From assembly GCA_025056565.1 (NCBI GenBank), contig JANWWA010000001.1, positions 1 to 64,000 on the forward strand: 64,000 nucleotides of DNA. The letters run 5' to 3'. Every line of letters begins with the position of its first letter. Position 1 is the stretch's first letter. The position numbers and the translations under genes were made by a program. A model generated the notes under the pieces. It searched no databases. It worked only from the letters and a program-made list of their open reading frames with translations, and was not told the origin of the DNA. This DNA is from Chloroherpetonaceae bacterium. Lineage in GTDB: Bacteria > Bacteroidota > Chlorobiia > Chlorobiales > Thermochlorobacteraceae. Below, piece by piece: positions 1,161 to 12,862 of this stretch.

Positions 1161-4100
1161 ATGAGACGCTTCATCTTGTTGTGCTGTCTCTTCCACTTCC
1201 TGCTGCAAGCTGTGCTGTCTGCGCAGCCCGTTGTGTTTAAGCACACGGTTACATCGCAAAACCTCACGGCTAACTACACTACGCTCTCTCACCCCGCTAC
1301 TGACCAACGCCCTAATGCGCTGCTTTTTGTCACCACAGACTATGGCAGAGGACAGTATCCCGCTGCTCCCATTGGTGTGTGGTATAACAGTGGCAAGTGG
1401 ACTATCTTCAATCAAGACAGAAGTCCAATGACTCGTGGTGCGCAGTTCAACGTGCTTGTCCTCGAGCCGAGTGAGCGTGCCTTTGTGCATCAAGCCACTG
1501 CGAAGAACACCTCTGGGCATATTACTTACTTGGATCACCCACTCCTCAATGGGAATCCCAAAGCCCGCCTCCTCGTAACCCAAAACTGGCAAGGGGTCTA
1601 TAACAATAGCCCAATCGGTGTCTACTACACGGGTCAGCAATGGGCAATCTTTAATCAAGACCTTCGCTCTATGCCCACAGGGGCACTGTTCAATGTGTTT
1701 GTTTCAGACGAACTTCTCGAAATCGAAGCCAGAGCACCTCTTGACAACTGGTGTGCCGCTCGTCATCCTTCACTCGATAACCAATCGAATTTGCTGCTGT
1801 TTGTTACCCAATACTGGACATCAGTCTACAACCCAAGCGAAGTTGGGGTGTGGTATGACGATGATGAGTGGCGCATTTTTAACCAAAGCCAAGCACCGAT
1901 GCCGAAGGGCGCACGGTTTTTCGTCTATGCGACCTCGCCTTCGCCCGTTACGGCTGTGCCGCCCTCTTTACCGCTCGGTCCACAAGACCCCAGAGAGCGA
2001 CTGAAAGACCCTATGCGCGACCCTGACCCGCGTCAGCGTCCACAACCCCAGCCGCAGCCTACTCTTCCGCGCTCCCCATTCCCTCGTTTAACTCCGAGCG
2101 ACATTAAGCGCAATGAACCTACGACGGCGCAGCTACGAGAGTCGCTAGAGCGTCAGCTTCGTGGATGGGTTGATTTGCATACGCATCCAATGAGTCACTT
2201 GGGCTTTGGTCGAAAAGCGATGCATGGTGCGCCAGATGTTGGAATTTATGTTCCACCAGGTATGGCAAGTTGCGACTGGCACGGCAATGCGACATCGCCT
2301 GCTCAAGCGCTCGCTAACTGCAACCCTACACACGGCGGATGGGGTCGTTTCGATAATCTTTGCGGCAATTACTTCCGCGCAGGTGTTATCAGCGGGGCTC
2401 TCGATAAAGACTTCATTCACAATACACGTAATGAGCTCCATCCTGACCATCACCATGACGGTTATCCTAACTTTCCTTACTGGCCACACCATAGCTCCAA
2501 GCTACACCAGCAAATGTGGTGGGAGTGGATAAAGCGCGCCTATGATGGTGGCTTGCGGGTCATGGTCGCACTGACTGTCAACAGTGAGCTTTTAGCTGCT
2601 TTACTCGATGGTGACCGACCCTATGACGATGAATCTGTTGCGGTGCGGCAAATTGCAGAGACAAAGAAGTTTGTCGAGCAGCACAGTGACTTTATGGAAA
2701 TCGCTTACTCCGCTGAGCAGCTGCGAGACATAGTAAGAAGGGGCAAATTAGCGGTGGTCTTAGGTATGGAGATGGATAGATGGTCTCTTAGCTACGCCAT
2801 AGATAGACCGCCAGCTGCGAACGTGGTTGTCAGCGTAGGCGGTAGCAGTCAACCACCTACCAAGTACATTCCTGCTCCTGTTCAGAAGCAGTGGAGGCAT
2901 GAGTATAGGCCTGACCTTAGAGCATATGTACGAAATCTTGTTCAACGCTGGTACAATATGGGCATACGTTATGTCTTCCCTGTCCATTTAGTCGATAATG
3001 AGTTTAGCGGTGCAGCGGTCTATGATGTTCTGTTTAGCTTCGCTAATTGCTATACCAATGGTTATCACTTTCTTCTCGAGTCAAGTTCCGATCGAAATCT
3101 TGGCTATGATATGCGACGTCAAATTAGTGGTTTCCGCGACGCAATAGGAAGGCTAAGAGACGCTCCAGGCAGGCCTAGATTTGTAGACGGCCTCTTAAAC
3201 ACCTCTGCTGAGCTGGAACGCAAAGCCGAACACTTCAGCACTGGTAGGCATGTCAATACACTTGGGCTCACTTACTTAGGAGAAATTGCGCTCCAAGAGA
3301 TGATGAGCTTAGGCATGCTGATTGATATTGACCATATGTCTGAGAAAGCTCAGCGGCGTGCAGTGGAAATTGCGGAAAGCATCCCGGGTGGCGGATATCC
3401 CCTCTTTATGGGACACAATGGTATCCGCTCCATCGGTGGCAATGAGCGCAATGCACCACGTGAACTTGTTGAGCGGATTAGTCGGCTTGGCGGTATGCTT
3501 GGTGTGGGGACCGCCCATGCTACACCAGAGCAATTTGTGCGTAACTTCCAGTCTGCTTGGGAAGCAATGGGCGGACGTGCTGTAGCGGTTGGCACTGATG
3601 TCAATGGGTTCGAGCTGTTACCCCATCATAGACGCCCCAATACGAGTAGTGAAAGTGATCGCTTTTACAGAGACTTTTTCAGCTTTCCATACTTTGAGGG
3701 TCGCATCACGGACAAGAGTGGCATTCAAGGTAGCTCACGCAAGTGGGATTACATCACAGAAGGAGGGGTCTCCCATTACGGGCTGATGCCAGAATTTTTC
3801 TACGACGTTAGTCTTCAATCAGGAGGCAGGGAAGTGGTCGATAATCTCTGGCAAGCGGCTGAATATTTTGCCCAAGCGTGGGAAAAGTGTGAGCGTGTCA
3901 AAAGTAGCGTAGCCAGTGCCTCTATTCCGCCAAGCCGTGATGTAGCCGTTGCAACTTACGCTCCAGTCATCACTCACCCCTTATGCCCACGGCATACTGG
4001 TGGAGACCGTGAATTTGCCGGTCGTGGTCCTCGTGCGAGCGGCTCTATTGAGCTTCGAATCAGTCCTGATAAGACGCAGCTGCAGGCTGTTGTGACGCTC

Positions 4101-4490
4101 CAAGTTCAAGAGTGGGATGAGCCCAGTGGGCGCCCTGGAGATACGCGTGGCGAGGGGAGCTGGATTATAGAATTGGCTTCTGCACCTCCAGGTATGTACT
4201 TTGACTACATTACCGTGCCATACACCACCACTATGCGGTTCGATAGAGTCCTTCGTGGGGGCGGTCGCACCGAATTTTTGGGCGCAGGCGAGCCCGACGG
4301 TGAGGAGCATAGTCTTGACTTTCGCGATGGCTTCGTTGAAAGGATTAAAATCATTGGTGACACAGGCGGGGAGGATGTATCGCATGATGACGATTGCAGC
4401 AACGATACCCGCATCACTGAGATTCGGTTTAGACCGATTTCAGTTCGCTTGATTCCTATTGGAGTATCCTACAGCAGCGGACGCCGCTAA
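1161..4490 (+). CDS. Exported membrane-dipeptidase (M19)-like metallohydrolase with three N-terminal repeats
   Basis: The protein has 1109 residues. Residues 1-21 form a signal peptide ending LSAQ. Three repeats of about 75 residues follow (about 25-255), each with the pattern LLFVT..W..VY...PIGVWY...W.IFNQD..PMP.GA.F.V, resembling a small repeat domain of unknown function. A proline-rich linker spans about 258-315. The body (about 330-880) has the metal-site plan of peptidase M19: DLHTHP (H340, H342), GME (E537), DIDHMS (H725), MGHNG (H752) and GTDVNG (D813). A further C-terminal domain of about 150 residues is unassigned. The family cleaves dipeptides or related amides using zinc. This protein is about three times the usual M19 length, so the substrate is unknown. 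A terminator follows directly. Confidence 0.8.
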   Translation: MRRFILLCCLFHFLLQAVLSAQPVVFKHTVTSQNLTANYTTLSHPATDQRPNALLFVTTDYGRGQYPAAPIGVWYNSGKWTIFNQDRSPMTRGAQFNVLVLEPSERAFVHQATAKNTSGHITYLDHPLLNGNPKARLLVTQNWQGVYNNSPIGVYYTGQQWAIFNQDLRSMPTGALFNVFVSDELLEIEARAPLDNWCAARHPSLDNQSNLLLFVTQYWTSVYNPSEVGVWYDDDEWRIFNQSQAPMPKGARFFVYATSPSPVTAVPPSLPLGPQDPRERLKDPMRDPDPRQRPQPQPQPTLPRSPFPRLTPSDIKRNEPTTAQLRESLERQLRGWVDLHTHPMSHLGFGRKAMHGAPDVGIYVPPGMASCDWHGNATSPAQALANCNPTHGGWGRFDNLCGNYFRAGVISGALDKDFIHNTRNELHPDHHHDGYPNFPYWPHHSSKLHQQMWWEWIKRAYDGGLRVMVALTVNSELLAALLDGDRPYDDESVAVRQIAETKKFVEQHSDFMEIAYSAEQLRDIVRRGKLAVVLGMEMDRWSLSYAIDRPPAANVVVSVGGSSQPPTKYIPAPVQKQWRHEYRPDLRAYVRNLVQRWYNMGIRYVFPVHLVDNEFSGAAVYDVLFSFANCYTNGYHFLLESSSDRNLGYDMRRQISGFRDAIGRLRDAPGRPRFVDGLLNTSAELERKAEHFSTGRHVNTLGLTYLGEIALQEMMSLGMLIDIDHMSEKAQRRAVEIAESIPGGGYPLFMGHNGIRSIGGNERNAPRELVERISRLGGMLGVGTAHATPEQFVRNFQSAWEAMGGRAVAVGTDVNGFELLPHHRRPNTSSESDRFYRDFFSFPYFEGRITDKSGIQGSSRKWDYITEGGVSHYGLMPEFFYDVSLQSGGREVVDNLWQAAEYFAQAWEKCERVKSSVASASIPPSRDVAVATYAPVITHPLCPRHTGGDREFAGRGPRASGSIELRISPDKTQLQAVVTLQVQEWDEPSGRPGDTRGEGSWIIELASAPPGMYFDYITVPYTTTMRFDRVLRGGGRTEFLGAGEPDGEEHSLDFRDGFVERIKIIGDTGGEDVSHDDDCSNDTRITEIRFRPISVRLIPIGVSYSSGRR

Positions 4491-4513
4491 GCTTTCTTGG
4501 GCTTGTCACTTTG

Positions 4514-4551
4514 CTGCCCAGTAACCTCTTCTGTGTTGCTGGGCAGTTTTT
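4514..4551 (+). terminator. Rho-independent terminator
   Basis: Arms CTGCCCAG (4514-4521) and CTGGGCAG (4539-4546) form an 8-bp stem followed directly by TTTTTC. It sits 24 bp after the dipeptidase-like gene and ends that transcript. Confidence 0.85.
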
Positions 4552-4721
4552 CTTCGAGCAGACCGTCTCAAAAGAACAAGACTCTGCTAGGGCTATCGTA
4601 TCTCGTCATGCTGATTGACATCGTAGAATTGCGGGGTATCACTGAAACCAATGTGGACGTCAACGCCTGTGGGAGCCTTCAGGGAGCCGCATTGAAGACA
4701 CTGTGTAACTCCATTTCATTG

Positions 4722-4794
<73 letters not shown>

Positions 4795-4831
4795 AACTTG
4801 CTACACTAGCCTGCACCAGTGTTGCTTAGCC

Positions 4832-5212
4832 CTACTTAGCCGTGTCACTCTTTCCTGCCGCCGATTCGCTTCCCTTTTCCTTCGGGAGCGAGCTGGTCGA
4901 GGGCAGTGTCGGTAAGGTAGGCATCGTCTTTGGAGCCGCTTTCTGAATAACACTCTCCTCTGGCTCTTTCTCCTTGCTTGCACGCGTGGTAAACTCTGCA
5001 ATTACGCAGAGAATCATAAAAGTCGCTGCAAGATAGGTTGTGGTGCGGCTTAAAATATCTGCGGTGCGCCGCACCCCCAAAACCTGCTGCGCTCCCATTC
5101 CAATCCCAAATGCCCCAGCTAACCCTGACCCTCTGCTACTTTGCATCAATACGACCAAAATAAGCAGGATAGATACCAAAATCGTTAGAATCACAACAAT
5201 TGTGTGCAGCAT
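4832..5212 (-). CDS. secG: Preprotein translocase subunit SecG
   Basis: This 126-residue protein has the SecG layout: a first membrane helix at about 3-23, the conserved cytoplasmic stretch MQSSRGSGLAGAFG, then a second helix at about 55-72. The C-terminal tail (about 76-126) is charged and rich in Pro, Ser and Lys, and is longer than in the shortest SecG proteins. SecG assists SecYE and SecA in export across the inner membrane. It lies just downstream of where tRNA-Lys is transcribed in the opposite order on the same strand. Confidence 0.93.
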   Translation of the reverse strand: MLHTIVVILTILVSILLILVVLMQSSRGSGLAGAFGIGMGAQQVLGVRRTADILSRTTTYLAATFMILCVIAEFTTRASKEKEPEESVIQKAAPKTMPTLPTLPSTSSLPKEKGSESAAGKSDTAK

Positions 5213-5513: not shown

Positions 5514-5593
5514 AGGTAGCTTACACGTCTCCCTTGCCACACAGTTTTCCAGCCTGACTTTTTTGCCTTCACGAAAATGTGCAACTTTGCGCT

Positions 5594-6673
5594 ATGCCGT
5601 CCATAAGGCTTCATATTGCAGGCATTGTATGGCTCTTTCTTGCTGTAGCCGCTGGTCATAGCTTTGCACAAGTTAGTGGCGCTGCAGCGCCTTTTTCCCG
5701 AATGGGCTTTTCCGCACGTGGCACAGGGTTAGGCAACGCCGGCACGGCTATCGCCACTAGCGGTGAACTCCACCCTTACTACAACCCTGCATTGGTTGGC
5801 TTCACCGAATACTACGACGCATCAGTAACCTACACTTTTCTTTCACTTGACCGCACGCTGAACTTTGTGTCCTTTCTTGGCAAAATTGGTCCCACAGCTG
5901 GCATCGGCGCCGCATGGATTAACGCTGGCATTGGCAACATTGACGCCCGTAACCGTGATGGCAAACAAACTGGCACTCTCTCCACGTCGGAGAATCTCTT
6001 TATGCTTTCGTTTGCCAATCGTTTCACCGATGCGCTTTCCTTAGGACTGACACTGCGCGGATACTTGGCTTCGCTCGTGGCTCAAATTCGTCCTTCTTTT
6101 ACGATTGGACTTGACGCTGGGGCACTTTATCGTTTTTCATTGGATTCACTGACTTACCTTTCGCTAGCAGTGAGCGTAGCCGATGTGCTCTCACAGTATC
6201 GCTGGGATACGACACCGATCTATGACCAGCAAGGCCTGACCACGATTGACCCTCTGCCACTTGCGTTGCGTGCTGGTATCGCTTTGCAGTGGGAACAACT
6301 GTTCGGCTGGCATACTATTGTGCTTGCTGCCGATGTGCAACTTCTTACGGCATCGCTGGAAGGGCGACGCACTACCTTCATTGTTGAAAATGGCATTGCA
6401 CGTCCGACCTTAGAGACCGAATCCTTGAGACGGTCTGAAACTCACCTACGATTAGGCGCAATGCTGCAACCTCTGCGGATTTTGAAATTTCGCATCGGCG
6501 TTGACCGACTGGGCTTGCAAGGTATTGGCTTTTTTGAGCTGGCAAAGCCTGCCTTTGGTTTTTCAGTGGAGTATCCGATAGACCGCGTTGTGGCCGCGCT
6601 GGATTACACATTTATGCTTGAACCAAATGCCCCTTTTGGACTAAACTTCCTGTCGCTTGGCGTGAAATTTTAG
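5594..6673 (+). CDS. PorV/PorQ-like outer-membrane beta-barrel protein
   Basis: The protein has 359 residues from the ATG at 5594; an upstream GTG at 5579 is also in frame. The signal peptide ends about HSFAQ. The early motif ARGTGLGNAGTA followed by YYNPA is typical of the PorV/PorQ-type proteins of Chlorobiota and Bacteroidota. The rest alternates short beta strands and ends in LSLGVKF with a terminal Phe, as in outer-membrane barrels. PorV helps release cargo in the type IX secretion system, which fits the T9SS proteins in this window. A paralogue with another role cannot be excluded. Only 2 bp separate it from the next gene. Confidence 0.75.
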   Translation: MPSIRLHIAGIVWLFLAVAAGHSFAQVSGAAAPFSRMGFSARGTGLGNAGTAIATSGELHPYYNPALVGFTEYYDASVTYTFLSLDRTLNFVSFLGKIGPTAGIGAAWINAGIGNIDARNRDGKQTGTLSTSENLFMLSFANRFTDALSLGLTLRGYLASLVAQIRPSFTIGLDAGALYRFSLDSLTYLSLAVSVADVLSQYRWDTTPIYDQQGLTTIDPLPLALRAGIALQWEQLFGWHTIVLAADVQLLTASLEGRRTTFIVENGIARPTLETESLRRSETHLRLGAMLQPLRILKFRIGVDRLGLQGIGFFELAKPAFGFSVEYPIDRVVAALDYTFMLEPNAPFGLNFLSLGVKF

Positions 6674-8127: not shown

Positions 8128-8715
8128 ATGACTATGAAACATCGGCTGATTTTGGCTCTTTTTCTTTCTTTTGCTCTTTTCGGTTGTGAGTCGGTGCAGC
8201 AAGCCTACCTGCTCTCAACAGGTGATGCTTCAAACCTCTCACGGCGAGTGTACTATCGTGATGATGCAAGCAACGTTGGTGTTGCACTCACGGCTACTTA
8301 TCGCTTTATTGGGAAACCGCTACGTGGGGAGCGCATTCGCTTGATTGCTGTGCAGTCGCTGGTGGAAATTGACATTGAAAACAAAGGCACAAAGCCGATT
8401 ATCTTTGACCCCAGAAAATTGAAGTTTCTTTCTTCCAACTATCTCTTTGTAGAACTCAGCGAATTCATTGAGAAGAACAAAATCAATGCAACGTTGAAGC
8501 AGGGACGGGTGGAAATCCAGCCCGGTAAAGGCGAGCGCTGCTATGCGTCGTTTGTAGCTGACTTTGGCGATTCTTCGTCTGTCGTGCCAATTGATTATGT
8601 GCCTGTTGCCCGTTTGCCTAAGACGGAAACTGCCGTCCTCCTAATGGAAGACGGCTTGAAATACGGCGACCAGCGCCTTTCTGTCCCACCGATTCGTTTC
8701 AAACCGCAGGAGTGA
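8128..8715 (+). CDS. Putative lipoprotein of unknown function
   Basis: The protein has 195 residues. A hydrophobic leader ends in ALFGC, giving a lipobox Cys at about residue 20. The mature part looks beta-rich, with a stretch about KGTKPIIFDPRKLKFLSS that resembles small LEA/Ig-like lipoproteins, but I do not recognise the family. An alternative ATG lies two codons in (8134). The TGA stop overlaps the next ATG (TGATG), pointing to translational coupling. Confidence 0.6.
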   Translation: MTMKHRLILALFLSFALFGCESVQQAYLLSTGDASNLSRRVYYRDDASNVGVALTATYRFIGKPLRGERIRLIAVQSLVEIDIENKGTKPIIFDPRKLKFLSSNYLFVELSEFIEKNKINATLKQGRVEIQPGKGERCYASFVADFGDSSSVVPIDYVPVARLPKTETAVLLMEDGLKYGDQRLSVPPIRFKPQE

Positions 8716-10346
8716 TGACCACTTCTTACCCGGCGCACAGAGTGGGGCGCTCTGCTCCACTCTACACCTCTGCTGCAATAGCACTATGTGGCTTTGCACT
8801 CACCTACATTAGCCACGCCACCCTCTATGCACAAACGAGCATTAGTGTCCCATATAGCTTTGCCAAGTATTCATTGCATTTTTTTAGCCAGCGCTCCAAC
8901 TTAGGCACAAATATCGTGAACCATATTCGCTATAGCCCCGTTCATCGTCGCGTGTGGCTAGCGGGGCGCAATGGCTTGGTCTGGACAGACGATGGCGGCA
9001 TTACATTCAACACTATCACCGCCGTGCCACGCTTCAATCAGAATGGTATTCAGGGCTTAGATGTGCGAGGGCAGCGCATCTGGGCATCCAGCTCTCGCAT
9101 TACTGAAGCAGAAGGTCGGCGCTTCCCAACAGGTGATGGGTTGATGTATTCGGACGATGGCGGCACTACATGGCGCGAAGTGGCTCAACCCTTAGATTCA
9201 CCTGCGGATTCCATAGAGCGATACGGGTTCAACACACTGCGCGCTTTGCCAATTACCGTGCCACAACAGAATGTCATCTATGACATTGCTATTGGCAACA
9301 AAGATAGCACGGTTTGGGTCGCTACATGGTCAGGGGGCATACGGCGCACGCAGAATAATGGTCGCTCTTGGCAACGAATGGTCTTGCCCCCCACTGGACG
9401 CCAACGCATTGCGCCAACAGACACACTATCGTTTCAACTTGAACCGCGTCGTGGTGCACGGGGCGACTTAGTCTTCTTAGGATTTTCTGTGCTTCAAGCC
9501 TCTGATGGCGCGGTTTGGGTCGGCACGGTCGATGGCATTTGCCGCACCGATGACCCTGATGCGCTCTACCCGTCGTGGGTCAAATTTAATCGCACTTTTG
9601 GTGGCCTGTCGGGCAATTGGGTTACGGCGATTCGCGAACAGCCAGCTACCCCGCGCTTAGGACGTGCGATTTGGGCAGCGACATGGCAAGCCGAATCACG
9701 GCAAGAGGCTTTTGGCGTCTCGTGGACACGAGACAATGGCAACTCGTGGCAAACTGCTCTCTTAGGTGAGCGCATCTATGACTTTGCCTTTCGTGGTGAC
9801 ACAGTTTATGCCGTTGGGACAAACGGTCTATTCATCTCACCTGATGGTGGCGAAACTTGGCTCAATCGGCGTGGCGTGCAAGACAGAGACAACCCTCGCC
9901 TACTCATTCAGCCACAAGCAGAAATGTTTGCCTTAGGCATTGAACCGCTGGGTCGCAGTGAGCGCCTTTGGCTTGGCAGCGAAGACGGCACGGCTACTTC
10001 AACGGACGGTGGCAACACTTGGAAAATTCTGCGTGCCGATCTTCCTGTGCCAGAAGGCACAAAAACATATGCTTATCCCAATCCTTTTGCGCCACGACTG
10101 GATGGCTCAGTGCGCATTCGTTATGCGCTTTCTCAACCTGCGCGAGTGACCATTCGCATCTACGACTTTGCTATGAATCTGGTAAAAACCGTTGTGCAAA
10201 ACGCACCACGCAGTCGCAGTGAAGAAGAAGACTTCTGGAACGGACGTAGCGATGCTGGCACGAAGGTGGCCAACGGTGTGTATTTTTATATTATTCAGGC
10301 AGACGGTCAAAAGCCACTTTACGGCAAAATTATGGTCTTGGAATAG
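8715..10346 (+). CDS. Secreted BNR/Asp-box repeat protein with T9SS C-terminal domain
   Basis: The protein has 543 residues. After an N-terminal hydrophobic segment (signal ends near LYAQ), at least six Asp-box repeats appear: WTDDGGITF, YSDDGGTTW, RTQNNGRSW, WTRDNGNSW, ISPDGGETW and TSTDGGNTW. These build beta-propellers as in sialidases, photosystem assembly factors and two-component sensors. The last about 85 residues (YPNPFAP..., then VYFYIIQADGQ...KIMVLE) form a T9SS/FlgD-like sorting domain, so the protein is likely exported and surface-attached. No sialidase FRIP motif was seen, so a binding role is more likely than catalysis. Confidence 0.75.
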   Translation: MTTSYPAHRVGRSAPLYTSAAIALCGFALTYISHATLYAQTSISVPYSFAKYSLHFFSQRSNLGTNIVNHIRYSPVHRRVWLAGRNGLVWTDDGGITFNTITAVPRFNQNGIQGLDVRGQRIWASSSRITEAEGRRFPTGDGLMYSDDGGTTWREVAQPLDSPADSIERYGFNTLRALPITVPQQNVIYDIAIGNKDSTVWVATWSGGIRRTQNNGRSWQRMVLPPTGRQRIAPTDTLSFQLEPRRGARGDLVFLGFSVLQASDGAVWVGTVDGICRTDDPDALYPSWVKFNRTFGGLSGNWVTAIREQPATPRLGRAIWAATWQAESRQEAFGVSWTRDNGNSWQTALLGERIYDFAFRGDTVYAVGTNGLFISPDGGETWLNRRGVQDRDNPRLLIQPQAEMFALGIEPLGRSERLWLGSEDGTATSTDGGNTWKILRADLPVPEGTKTYAYPNPFAPRLDGSVRIRYALSQPARVTIRIYDFAMNLVKTVVQNAPRSRSEEEDFWNGRSDAGTKVANGVYFYIIQADGQKPLYGKIMVLE

Positions 10347-10939: not shown

Positions 10940-11041
10940 GCACTTGTTTTCTGCTCACCACTGGCTTCACAAAAATTTAATTTTAGTGCCTTGCACATTC
11001 TCTCTATTTTGCGCGCTGCTTCAATAAGCCAGTCACCAACT

Positions 11042-12862
11042 ATGATACATCGCTTCTTACAACTGCTTTGCATTGCTTGTTTGGTTTCCATACCCGTTCT
11101 TGCGCAAACGCCTCGCTCCATGCGCGAGGTGCGCGCCGATTACAATGCTGGACGTATCCAATTAGGTGCCATTGTTACGCTCGCTGGGCGCGTAACTGTC
11201 GCCAATGAATTTGCTGGACCTACCTATTTTCAAGACGGGACAGGCGGTTTTGCCGTCTTCGATAATGCAGTGCATACAGGCGTGCAAATCGGTGATTCAA
11301 TTGTGGTTACAGGTCCCTTGTCCGAATTTCAGCCGACCACTGGGCAGCGTGGCACAGGACTGCTCCAAATTTCAGGAAGCGGTACCACCTTTCGCGTAGT
11401 TCAAAGCCCACGCATTACCCCCGAGCCGCGTGTGGTGACACCTGCTCAGGTTACCGAAGACTTAGAGGGCGTCTTGATTCAATTGAACAATGTGGAGTTT
11501 CGCACCACAGCTGGCACCACTTTCACGCAATTTCAAGGCAATACCAACTATCGCATTTTGGTTGGTGGCAACAACACAGGTCTGGAACTACGCATTGATG
11601 GCGACACTGAGCTTGCAGGGGCGCAAGCGCCTACTGGTCCTGTGAACTTGATTGGTGTAGTCAGTGAATTTCGGGGCACGCGCCAAATTCTGCCTCGCTT
11701 TCGGCGTGATGTAGGTGCACAGGAAGTCATTATCCCCGGCGAAAATATCCCGCTGGAAAATACGCTGGAAGTCTGCACTTGGAATATCGAGTGGTTTGGC
11801 GATACACAGAACGGTCCAACGAATGAAACACTGCAACTTCAAAATGCTGCAACGGTTATTCAGCGCATTAACGCGGACTTATATGCCTTTCAAGAAATTA
11901 GTGATGATGCTGCGTTTCGCGCATTGATTGATACGCTCAACCGACGTGGATTTGCGTGTCGCGGGTTTCGCGCTCCACGTGGTCAAACCCAACGCTTAGG
12001 GTTTCTTTGGAAACCATCAGTGATTGACTCAATTGGGCTGCAATTTGTTGAGGTGGGAAGCTGGGCACCTTTCCAAGGGGTCAGTCGTTTCCCTGTTGAA
12101 CTGACGGTTGATGCACGCATTCGTGGTGTTTCACGACGCCTGCGCATTGTCAACATTCACGCCGATGCCGGCAGCGCCACAGCTGATTACAACCGTCGCC
12201 TCTCCGATTCGCAAGCTTTGAAGACTTGGCTTGACCAAAACCGACCTAGTGACAACCTTATCTTGCTTGGCGATTACAACGATGATGTCGACGTCTCCAT
12301 TACGCCAAATCAGCCTTCTCCTTACGCCAACTTCGTCAGTGATGCAGCCAATTATCGTGTCGTTACAGCCAGTCTCAGCGCCCGTGGTGTGCGTTCTACT
12401 ACGGGCTTTACAGAGATGATTGACCATATTGCCATCACTAACGAGCTTTTTCCTGTCTATTTTACTGGCACAGAGCGCGTTGAAAACACTGTGTATATTC
12501 CGAACTACGCTTCAACGACCTCAGACCATTTTCCTGTTTGGGCGCGCTTTGCCTTAGACCCTACGGCTTCTACGGAGGTCTTGCCTACAGAGCGTCCTAC
12601 TGAGTTTCGCCTTTGGCAGAACTATCCCAACCCATTTAATCCAACTACGATTATCACTTATCAGCTTCCGACTGCTGCAGAAGTGAGCCTGAAGGTCTAT
12701 GATGTGTTGGGTCGAGAAGTTGCCACCTTAGTGAGCGAGCGCCGCAATGCGGGCACTTATCAAGTTCGTTTCAACGGAGCGGGTCTTCCAAGTGGAATGT
12801 ATTTCTACCGTTTGCAGGCGGGTCGCAATGTTCAGACTCGGAAAATGTTGCTTTTGAAGTAG
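11042..12862 (+). CDS. Secreted endonuclease/exonuclease/phosphatase-family protein with T9SS sorting domain
   Basis: The protein has 606 residues from the ATG at 11042, which gives a clean signal peptide (ending VLAQ); an earlier in-frame start would bury it. Residues about 25-225 look like an OB-fold/YhcR-type nucleic-acid binding domain. The region about 240-510 has the EEP fold motifs CTWNIEWFGD, FQEIS, LGDYNDD and SDHFPV. The last about 85 residues (FRLWQNYPNPFNPTT to RKMLLLK) are a T9SS type A sorting domain. The likely role is an extracellular metal-dependent nuclease that scavenges DNA or RNA; a phosphodiesterase with another substrate is possible. Confidence 0.82.
   Translation: MIHRFLQLLCIACLVSIPVLAQTPRSMREVRADYNAGRIQLGAIVTLAGRVTVANEFAGPTYFQDGTGGFAVFDNAVHTGVQIGDSIVVTGPLSEFQPTTGQRGTGLLQISGSGTTFRVVQSPRITPEPRVVTPAQVTEDLEGVLIQLNNVEFRTTAGTTFTQFQGNTNYRILVGGNNTGLELRIDGDTELAGAQAPTGPVNLIGVVSEFRGTRQILPRFRRDVGAQEVIIPGENIPLENTLEVCTWNIEWFGDTQNGPTNETLQLQNAATVIQRINADLYAFQEISDDAAFRALIDTLNRRGFACRGFRAPRGQTQRLGFLWKPSVIDSIGLQFVEVGSWAPFQGVSRFPVELTVDARIRGVSRRLRIVNIHADAGSATADYNRRLSDSQALKTWLDQNRPSDNLILLGDYNDDVDVSITPNQPSPYANFVSDAANYRVVTASLSARGVRSTTGFTEMIDHIAITNELFPVYFTGTERVENTVYIPNYASTTSDHFPVWARFALDPTASTEVLPTERPTEFRLWQNYPNPFNPTTIITYQLPTAAEVSLKVYDVLGREVATLVSERRNAGTYQVRFNGAGLPSGMYFYRLQAGRNVQTRKMLLLK

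Follow-up and report, generated by a model that had tools for sequence, protein, structure and literature searches.

The gene that lies close to the start of contig JANWWA010000001.1, in an assembly (GCA_025056565.1) assigned to a Chloroherpetonaceae bacterium, raises the question of what a protein built around a dipeptidase-like barrel would do outside the cell when it carries additional domains on both sides. It occupies positions 1161 to 4490 (stop codon included) of the plus strand of the analysed stretch of 64,000 nucleotides (the window), as do all of its features given below, and encodes a single frame of 1109 residues with homologues over its core and C-terminus. The original prediction, made from the letters alone, had proposed a hydrolase resembling peptidase family M19 with an export-type start, and this description is borne out by a signal-like segment and by a match to the Pfam family of that name. 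The explanation favoured here, by a modest balance of probability, is that the protein is an exported metal-dependent amide hydrolase with an HxH metal centre, which would be docked on a polymer by its repeats and act on a larger amide substrate.

The catalytic core (residues 335-925, positions 2163 to 3935) is very divergent in sequence from ordinary M19 proteins, and matches Peptidase_M19 (PF01244) with an E-value of 9.6e-19 and 68.1 bits (cut-off 26); the same family is matched (E-value of at most 0.01) in all 14 aligned members of the branch of relatives to which the protein belongs. An AlphaFold model was built from 14 sequences, with a mean predicted local distance difference test (pLDDT) score of 54.4; many elements of the barrel, the only confident region, reach scores of 70-96, and scores below 50 are found in the repeats, in most of the inserts, at H449 and over residues 608-615. 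Comparison of this model by VIA-align matched residues 332-930, and the top 17 rows, to judge by their titles, were all dipeptidases or amidohydrolases that resemble them (Z 26.6-31.7 and a root-mean-square deviation of 2.7-3.9 over 279-313 aligned residues), the next fold group among the best 50 rows being phosphotriesterases, lactonases and the like (Z 13.5-15.2). In global mode, hhalign aligned the branch with 30 ordinary M19 sequences at a probability of 99.9, and placed E537, H609, H725, H752 and D813 on the corresponding M19 positions. An alignment to GliJ agrees on all five, the piece with E537 and H609 being weak when taken by itself (i-Evalue of about 0.5). The modelled core is an M19 fold, far closer by fold and sequence to M19 than to the phosphotriesterases.

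The fold is ordinary; the departure from M19 is in the metal motif and the build. The first metal motif (H340-x-H342, positions 2178 to 2186) is H-x-H in 22 of 22 branch members including the window protein, whereas all 30 ordinary M19 rows have H-x-D; the 22 (14 rows of alignment A1 and 8 others) were all found by homology and cut with patterns that contain HxH, which every row tried fitted, the broken copy L027 lying outside the trial, and the 30 lean towards typical M19 because they were kept from the best-scoring matches of a search that matched 53 of 118 genomes, the window's included. Because of an insert, this motif is unaligned in the profile alignment, and was placed by sequence context and fold. 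VIA-align sets residue 12 of human renal dipeptidase opposite model residue 332, so that H340 and H342, if the alignment is ungapped from there, would presumably sit on H20 and D22 of the renal enzyme. Judged by motif, the protein lacks the HxD of M19 and has the other active-site residues at the M19 positions: the bridging glutamate (E537, positions 2769 to 2771), the substrate-side histidine (H609, positions 2985 to 2987, a position that we take to be H152 of renal dipeptidase), the two later histidines of the metal site (H725 in DIDHMS, positions 3333 to 3335, and H752 in GHN, positions 3414 to 3416) and the final catalytic or metal aspartate (D813 in GTDVNG, positions 3597 to 3599).

These residues, together with H340, H342 and an extra histidine (H449, in an HQQ motif, positions 2505 to 2507), are identical in all 22 branch members, and H391 and H872 are kept in 21 of them. 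Because eight active-site residues are invariant in 22 of 22 proteins across distant lineages, an active enzyme is argued for. The strong divergence from ordinary M19 might otherwise be read as that of a catalytically dead cell-surface barrel that serves as scaffold or receptor, and porcine dipeptidase 1, a solved M19 relative, is listed in complex with a viral receptor-binding domain (9h0b); against such invariance, this explanation is highly improbable.

The loops of the barrel are also rebuilt. From the first motif to the glutamate there are 198 residues in the window protein and 163-242 in the 14 branch rows, compared with 97-124 in ordinary M19, where spacings come from the 10 of 30 rows in which all patterns anchored cleanly (the other 20, missed or mis-anchored, were unused). 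H609 and H725 are 116 residues apart (103-171 in the branch rows, 42-43 in ordinary M19), and H752 and D813 only 60 (59-73 in 13 of the 14 branch rows and 99 in L023, as against 98-104). The first large insert region lies between H342 and H449 (positions 2187 to 2504) and the second between H609 and H725 (positions 3006 to 3260). In addition, the stretch from E537 to H609 is longer in the window protein (71 residues) than in the other 13 branch rows (30-46). The original prediction had correctly pointed to a large insert ahead of E537 and to a reshaped active site, with which the inserts, the spacing changes and HxH all agree; it had overlooked HxH itself, the second insert and the shortened stretch between H752 and D813. 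It had also taken the build to be peculiar to this protein, and here the comparison says otherwise: the core and its inserts are common to 13 loci and further ones, so that the size and the inserts are, as far as the aligned sequences indicate, marks of the whole branch.

A tree of 55 rows, in which the first-motif columns were kept, separates the 30 HxD rows from the rest (support 100/99) and groups the 22 HxH rows (100/99). The window protein pairs with L013 of Calescibacterium (100/98), then with L012 and L015, and then with L014 of Larkinella; L016, L018, L019, L020, L021, L022 and L024, whose labels are in every case Bacteroidetes or one of its genera, form a group of their own. Three HxH proteins that resemble M19 (L100-L102, from genomes G121, G118 and G144 of the window's phylum) are shorter, have no visible signal segment and fall outside both groups; they were excluded from the 22. 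The root is a midpoint only and one of these three has a very long branch, so that HxH may either have been gained once or be ancestral. In comparison with the known M19 proteins of PF01244 (the renal dipeptidases DPEP1-3, Sco3058 and GliJ), the branch shares the barrel and the positions of the glutamate, the substrate-side histidine, the two later histidines and the final aspartate, and differs in HxH, in altered spacings, in the accessory domains of some members and in its separate place in the tree.

A scan of contigs with the core and C-terminus found 13 relatives, labelled Nitrosomonas, Calescibacterium, Larkinella, deltaproteobacterium, Ferruginibacter, Acidobacteriaceae bacterium, several Bacteroidetes or Flavobacteriales, and Pyxidicoccus. 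Plasmid records add proteins of Streptomyces and Embleya and a broken copy (L027, about positions 3856 to 5200) on a plasmid of Candidatus Manganitrophus, spread over several frames with stops; of the plasmid matches, H1-H4 were used, H5 and H6 (further S. atratus), H8 (a second Manganitrophus record) and H9 (Mesorhizobium, 21% of the query) were set aside, and H7, which is L027, stands outside the 22. The branch is thus present in records of at least seven lineages, in which single organism labels may be wrong because many of the records are metagenome bins. The nine genomes behind the contig-scan loci have copies in one place in eight cases and in several places in Pyxidicoccus. The window's genome has a single branch copy and no other M19, and none of 60 other relatives was matched by the protein search. 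In the sample of the window's phylum, the core profile matched 133 of 296 genomes at an E-value of at most 0.001; among the matches listed, only those of G000, G252 and, weakly, G237 cover the first half of the profile beyond a short stretch, the remainder starting at profile position 271 or later save for stretches near 139-193 in G142 and G213. Four of the weaker matches that were read (L066, L068, L070 and L072) carry HxD. The distribution of the branch in the window's phylum is patchy, and this spread, together with the tree, suggests transfer between lineages, short of proof.

Phosphotriesterases, lactonases and further enzymes of the amidohydrolase superfamily have HxH as their motif, and because of this the branch could instead hydrolyse another bond, such as that of esters, lactones or phosphoesters. 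Besides the motif, which stands here in place of HxD, the identity of the next fold group after the dipeptidases would fit such an activity. M38, the other family of clan MJ, also has HXH, being described as HXH, K, H, H and D in one account (PMC7804941). The likeness to M38 and to phosphotriesterase-type amidohydrolases extends to a barrel of the same superfamily and ends at the bridging lysine, which is absent: a glutamate stands there in 22 of 22 branch members, the position being taken from the alignment to M19. With this glutamate and H609 as in M19, and with phosphotriesterases giving a much weaker fold match (best Z 15.2), hydrolysis of another bond is considered quite unlikely.

A histidine in the first motif of an M19 barrel may also have been engineered. 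In GliJ, D38 is presumably the aspartate of HxD, because its spacing to D304 equals that of D22 to D288 in renal dipeptidase. Among the top fold matches is a structure titled Cys-Gly dipeptidase GliJ mutant D38H (PDB 5lx4), and D304 is the site of another titled mutant. D38H is one engineered change in an ordinary M19 protein, whereas the HxH of the branch is natural and fixed throughout.

The remainder of the window protein includes parts that would take the enzyme out of the cell and hold it there. Residues 1-21 (positions 1161 to 1223) form a hydrophobic, signal-peptide-like segment ending in LSAQ, predicted by hydropathy, and by a simple hydropathy count the N-terminus is hydrophobic in all 14 rows of alignment A1, L018 being read from its preceding stop. 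From this signal-like start, the enzyme is probably exported. No model of the type IX sorting tail (Por_Secre_tail or CHU_C) was matched by the window protein at an E-value of up to 1, other sorting types lying outside the search.

Three repeats of about 80 residues follow, at positions 1227 to 1472, 1473 to 1712 and 1713 to 1943. Because the Pfam domain DUF7452 (PF24249) matches all three stretches (E-value 3.1e-71, 237.6 bits, cut-off 28.2), they are repeats beyond chance; identity to repeat 2 is 40% for repeat 1 and 36% for repeat 3. The original prediction had named them after an IFNQD motif, which holds for repeats 1 and 2 and not for repeat 3, where the motif is IFNQS. A proline-rich linker, also foreseen from the sequence, joins them to the core (about residues 262-321, positions 1944 to 2123), with low pLDDT. 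DUF7452 occurs in 6 of the 296 genomes of the phylum sample, the window's included. Six other frames with the domain were read, from five genomes; each has one copy at the C-terminal end of a repetitive protein, although in the sixth (L010) the match is below the cut-off and covers part of the profile, the rest being the author's reading. These repetitive proteins look like surface fibres. The domain is common to them and to the window protein, where, instead of a single C-terminal copy, three N-terminal copies are joined to an enzyme. No sequence relative of DUF7452 was found in the Protein Data Bank (PDB) at an E-value of up to 1, repeat 2 had no match in phage records, and no fold was obtained from the model.

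At the other end, from about residue 937, is a C-terminal all-beta domain (positions 3969 to 4463) with the motifs GDREF.G.GP, GDTGG.D and DT. The original prediction had called it unique, and it recurs at four other loci: it is fused to the hydrolase in L013 and L016, encoded in L014 by a separate adjacent gene that shares N-terminal repeats with the hydrolase, and found behind the broken copy of L027. In the phylum sample it is present in two of 296 genomes, the window's and G294. Modelled alone from 4 sequences it is all-beta with a pLDDT of 77.7; it has no Pfam family at an E-value of up to 0.01, no Foldseek match below an E-value of 0.001 in the PDB or viral libraries and a best VIA-align Z of 3.2, a lack of fold match that does not establish a new fold. 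On the protein as a whole, Pfam gives DUF7452 and Peptidase_M19 as separate families, with two more matches under their cut-offs, and NCBIfam gives none, so that no known multi-domain family with an assigned function, the match that the original prediction had named as its refutation, was found. Accessory modules vary over the branch: a ricin-type lectin is found in L012, F5/8C in L025 and DUF7452 in the window protein. A Pfam domain besides M19 (E-value of at most 0.01) is present in two of 14 scanned members, the window protein and L012, and six members (L018-L022 and L024) have little beyond the signal and the core. Because other branch members carry modules of sugar-binding type (L012 and L025), binding of a polymer by the DUF7452 repeats is plausible by analogy.

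In the M19 mechanism, a metal-activated water is the nucleophile and an aspartate is the proton shuttle. Ordinary members of the fold act on small dipeptides, and renal dipeptidase also acts on some beta-lactams. By analogy, in the favoured explanation the three repeats would dock the exported enzyme on a surface or extracellular polymer, and one or two metal ions would be held via H340, H342, E537, H725, H752 and D813; a water activated by metal would attack the carbonyl of an amide placed between H609 and the metals, D813 would presumably shuttle the proton, and the bond cut would be an amide, of peptide type or N-acyl. The inserts and the short stretch between H752 and D813 would give the pocket a different lid, and because the lid differs the natural substrate is probably an amide carried by a larger structure, for instance a glycan or a piece of the cell wall, and not a free dipeptide. 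A more far-reaching version, which is put forward tentatively, is that the HxH branch constitutes a distinct class of exported amidases whose target polymer, set by the exchangeable modules, is a polysaccharide or a component of the cell wall, from which they would remove amino acids, short peptides or acyl groups joined to it by amide bonds. To our knowledge, no M19 enzyme has this activity.

The simplest rival is an ordinary dipeptidase with decorations, which would feed the cell by cleaving free dipeptides outside it and use its extra domains for anchoring only. The fold and catalytic positions are those of M19, and the genome offers no other M19 for the task. In ordinary M19, the arginine of an Arg-Asn pair after the last metal histidine (H752 in the window protein) holds the carboxylate of the dipeptide. 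This pair is RN in 26 of the 30 ordinary rows (it was not located in four, the pattern itself demanding Arg), and in the branch the four Streptomyces and Embleya members have a different, shorter segment at the site. Absence of the pair from the rest of the branch would agree with a different substrate, the window protein itself being closer to ordinary M19 there. Since all 22 members have HxH where ordinary M19 has HxD, and since the loop lengths are altered, a decorated dipeptidase is regarded as unlikely.

Several observations nevertheless weigh against an amide hydrolase docked on a polymer. Among the 22 branch members, the window protein is the one that retains the Arg-Asn pair, which is absent from the other 21. 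DUF7452 is an uncharacterised Pfam domain, and the shape of the pocket is outside the reach of the model because pLDDT is under 50 for most of the inserts, for H449 and around H609. No glycan enzyme was found among the nine other frames of the window that were scanned, to position 12862, and since the contig starts at window position 1 the upstream side is hardly visible. Elsewhere, and in favour of the explanation, a GH31 glycosidase gene adjoins the hydrolase in L022 (2561-4882) and L024 (6989-9436), both by Pfam, and in L021 (268-1017, a homologous frame); these are just three of the 13 loci, and all three belong to Bacteroidetes that are closely related and whose hydrolases carry no accessory domains. 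The neighbours are different at other loci, with a caspase-like gene in L014, a C39-like gene (below cut-off) in L016 and a class II tRNA synthetase in L012.

Further features of these neighbourhoods were noted. A conserved protein is encoded near the hydrolase in L022 (6507-8201, minus strand), L021 (4329-5978, minus strand) and L017 (2-3610, plus strand), under two labels; it has no Pfam match (the whole of it was scanned in L022 and part in L017), and weak PDB matches to viral proteases, from an E-value of 0.003, were taken for chance. A stretch that opens with TTGGDDLR or GTGGDDLRG, which no Pfam model matched, recurs in or beside branch members (L014 2835-3680, L016 7118-8257 and L017 4479-5050). 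In L014 (3681-10606), the hydrolase, the C-terminal-domain protein and the caspase-like protein are encoded next to one another and have N- or C-terminal repeats in common, as if the trio formed one set of surface proteins.

Downstream of the gene, the window encodes a PorV-like protein (5579-6673, below the Pfam cut-off) that is kept in G001, G002 and G003 with other upstream genes, a frame with a match to CHU_C below the cut-off (8712-10346), and a nuclease-like protein (10991-12862; DUF5689 and Exo_endo_phos) with Por_Secre_tail over the cut-off. The type IX tails of these neighbours would by themselves suggest Bacteroidota or a relative. Because the flanks in G001, G002 and G003 upstream of the PorV-like gene hold other genes, no empty site is readable, and a clean recent insertion is unsupported. 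Nothing marks the composition of the gene as foreign or as a sign of recent arrival, since ten further window frames span its GC content of 0.518 and its GC3 of 0.50. Origin from a phage was rejected, as phage records gave no match to the core, and the 96 stretches of viral contigs that fitted a pattern for the core do not encode any relative. There was no PADLOC match that would indicate a defence system. Literature searches found nothing on DUF7452 or on M19 joined to ricin; for M19 dipeptidases and the amidohydrolase superfamily, no title on this branch was among the matches listed.

With the window protein, both DUF7452, which is uncharacterised, and the C-terminal beta domain, which has no name, are seen as parts of an enzyme. 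H342 is one clear residue with which to probe how the metal centre sets specificity, and a natural branch with a changed metal motif, rebuilt loops and binding modules would show how the barrel of the M19 family was turned to new substrates.

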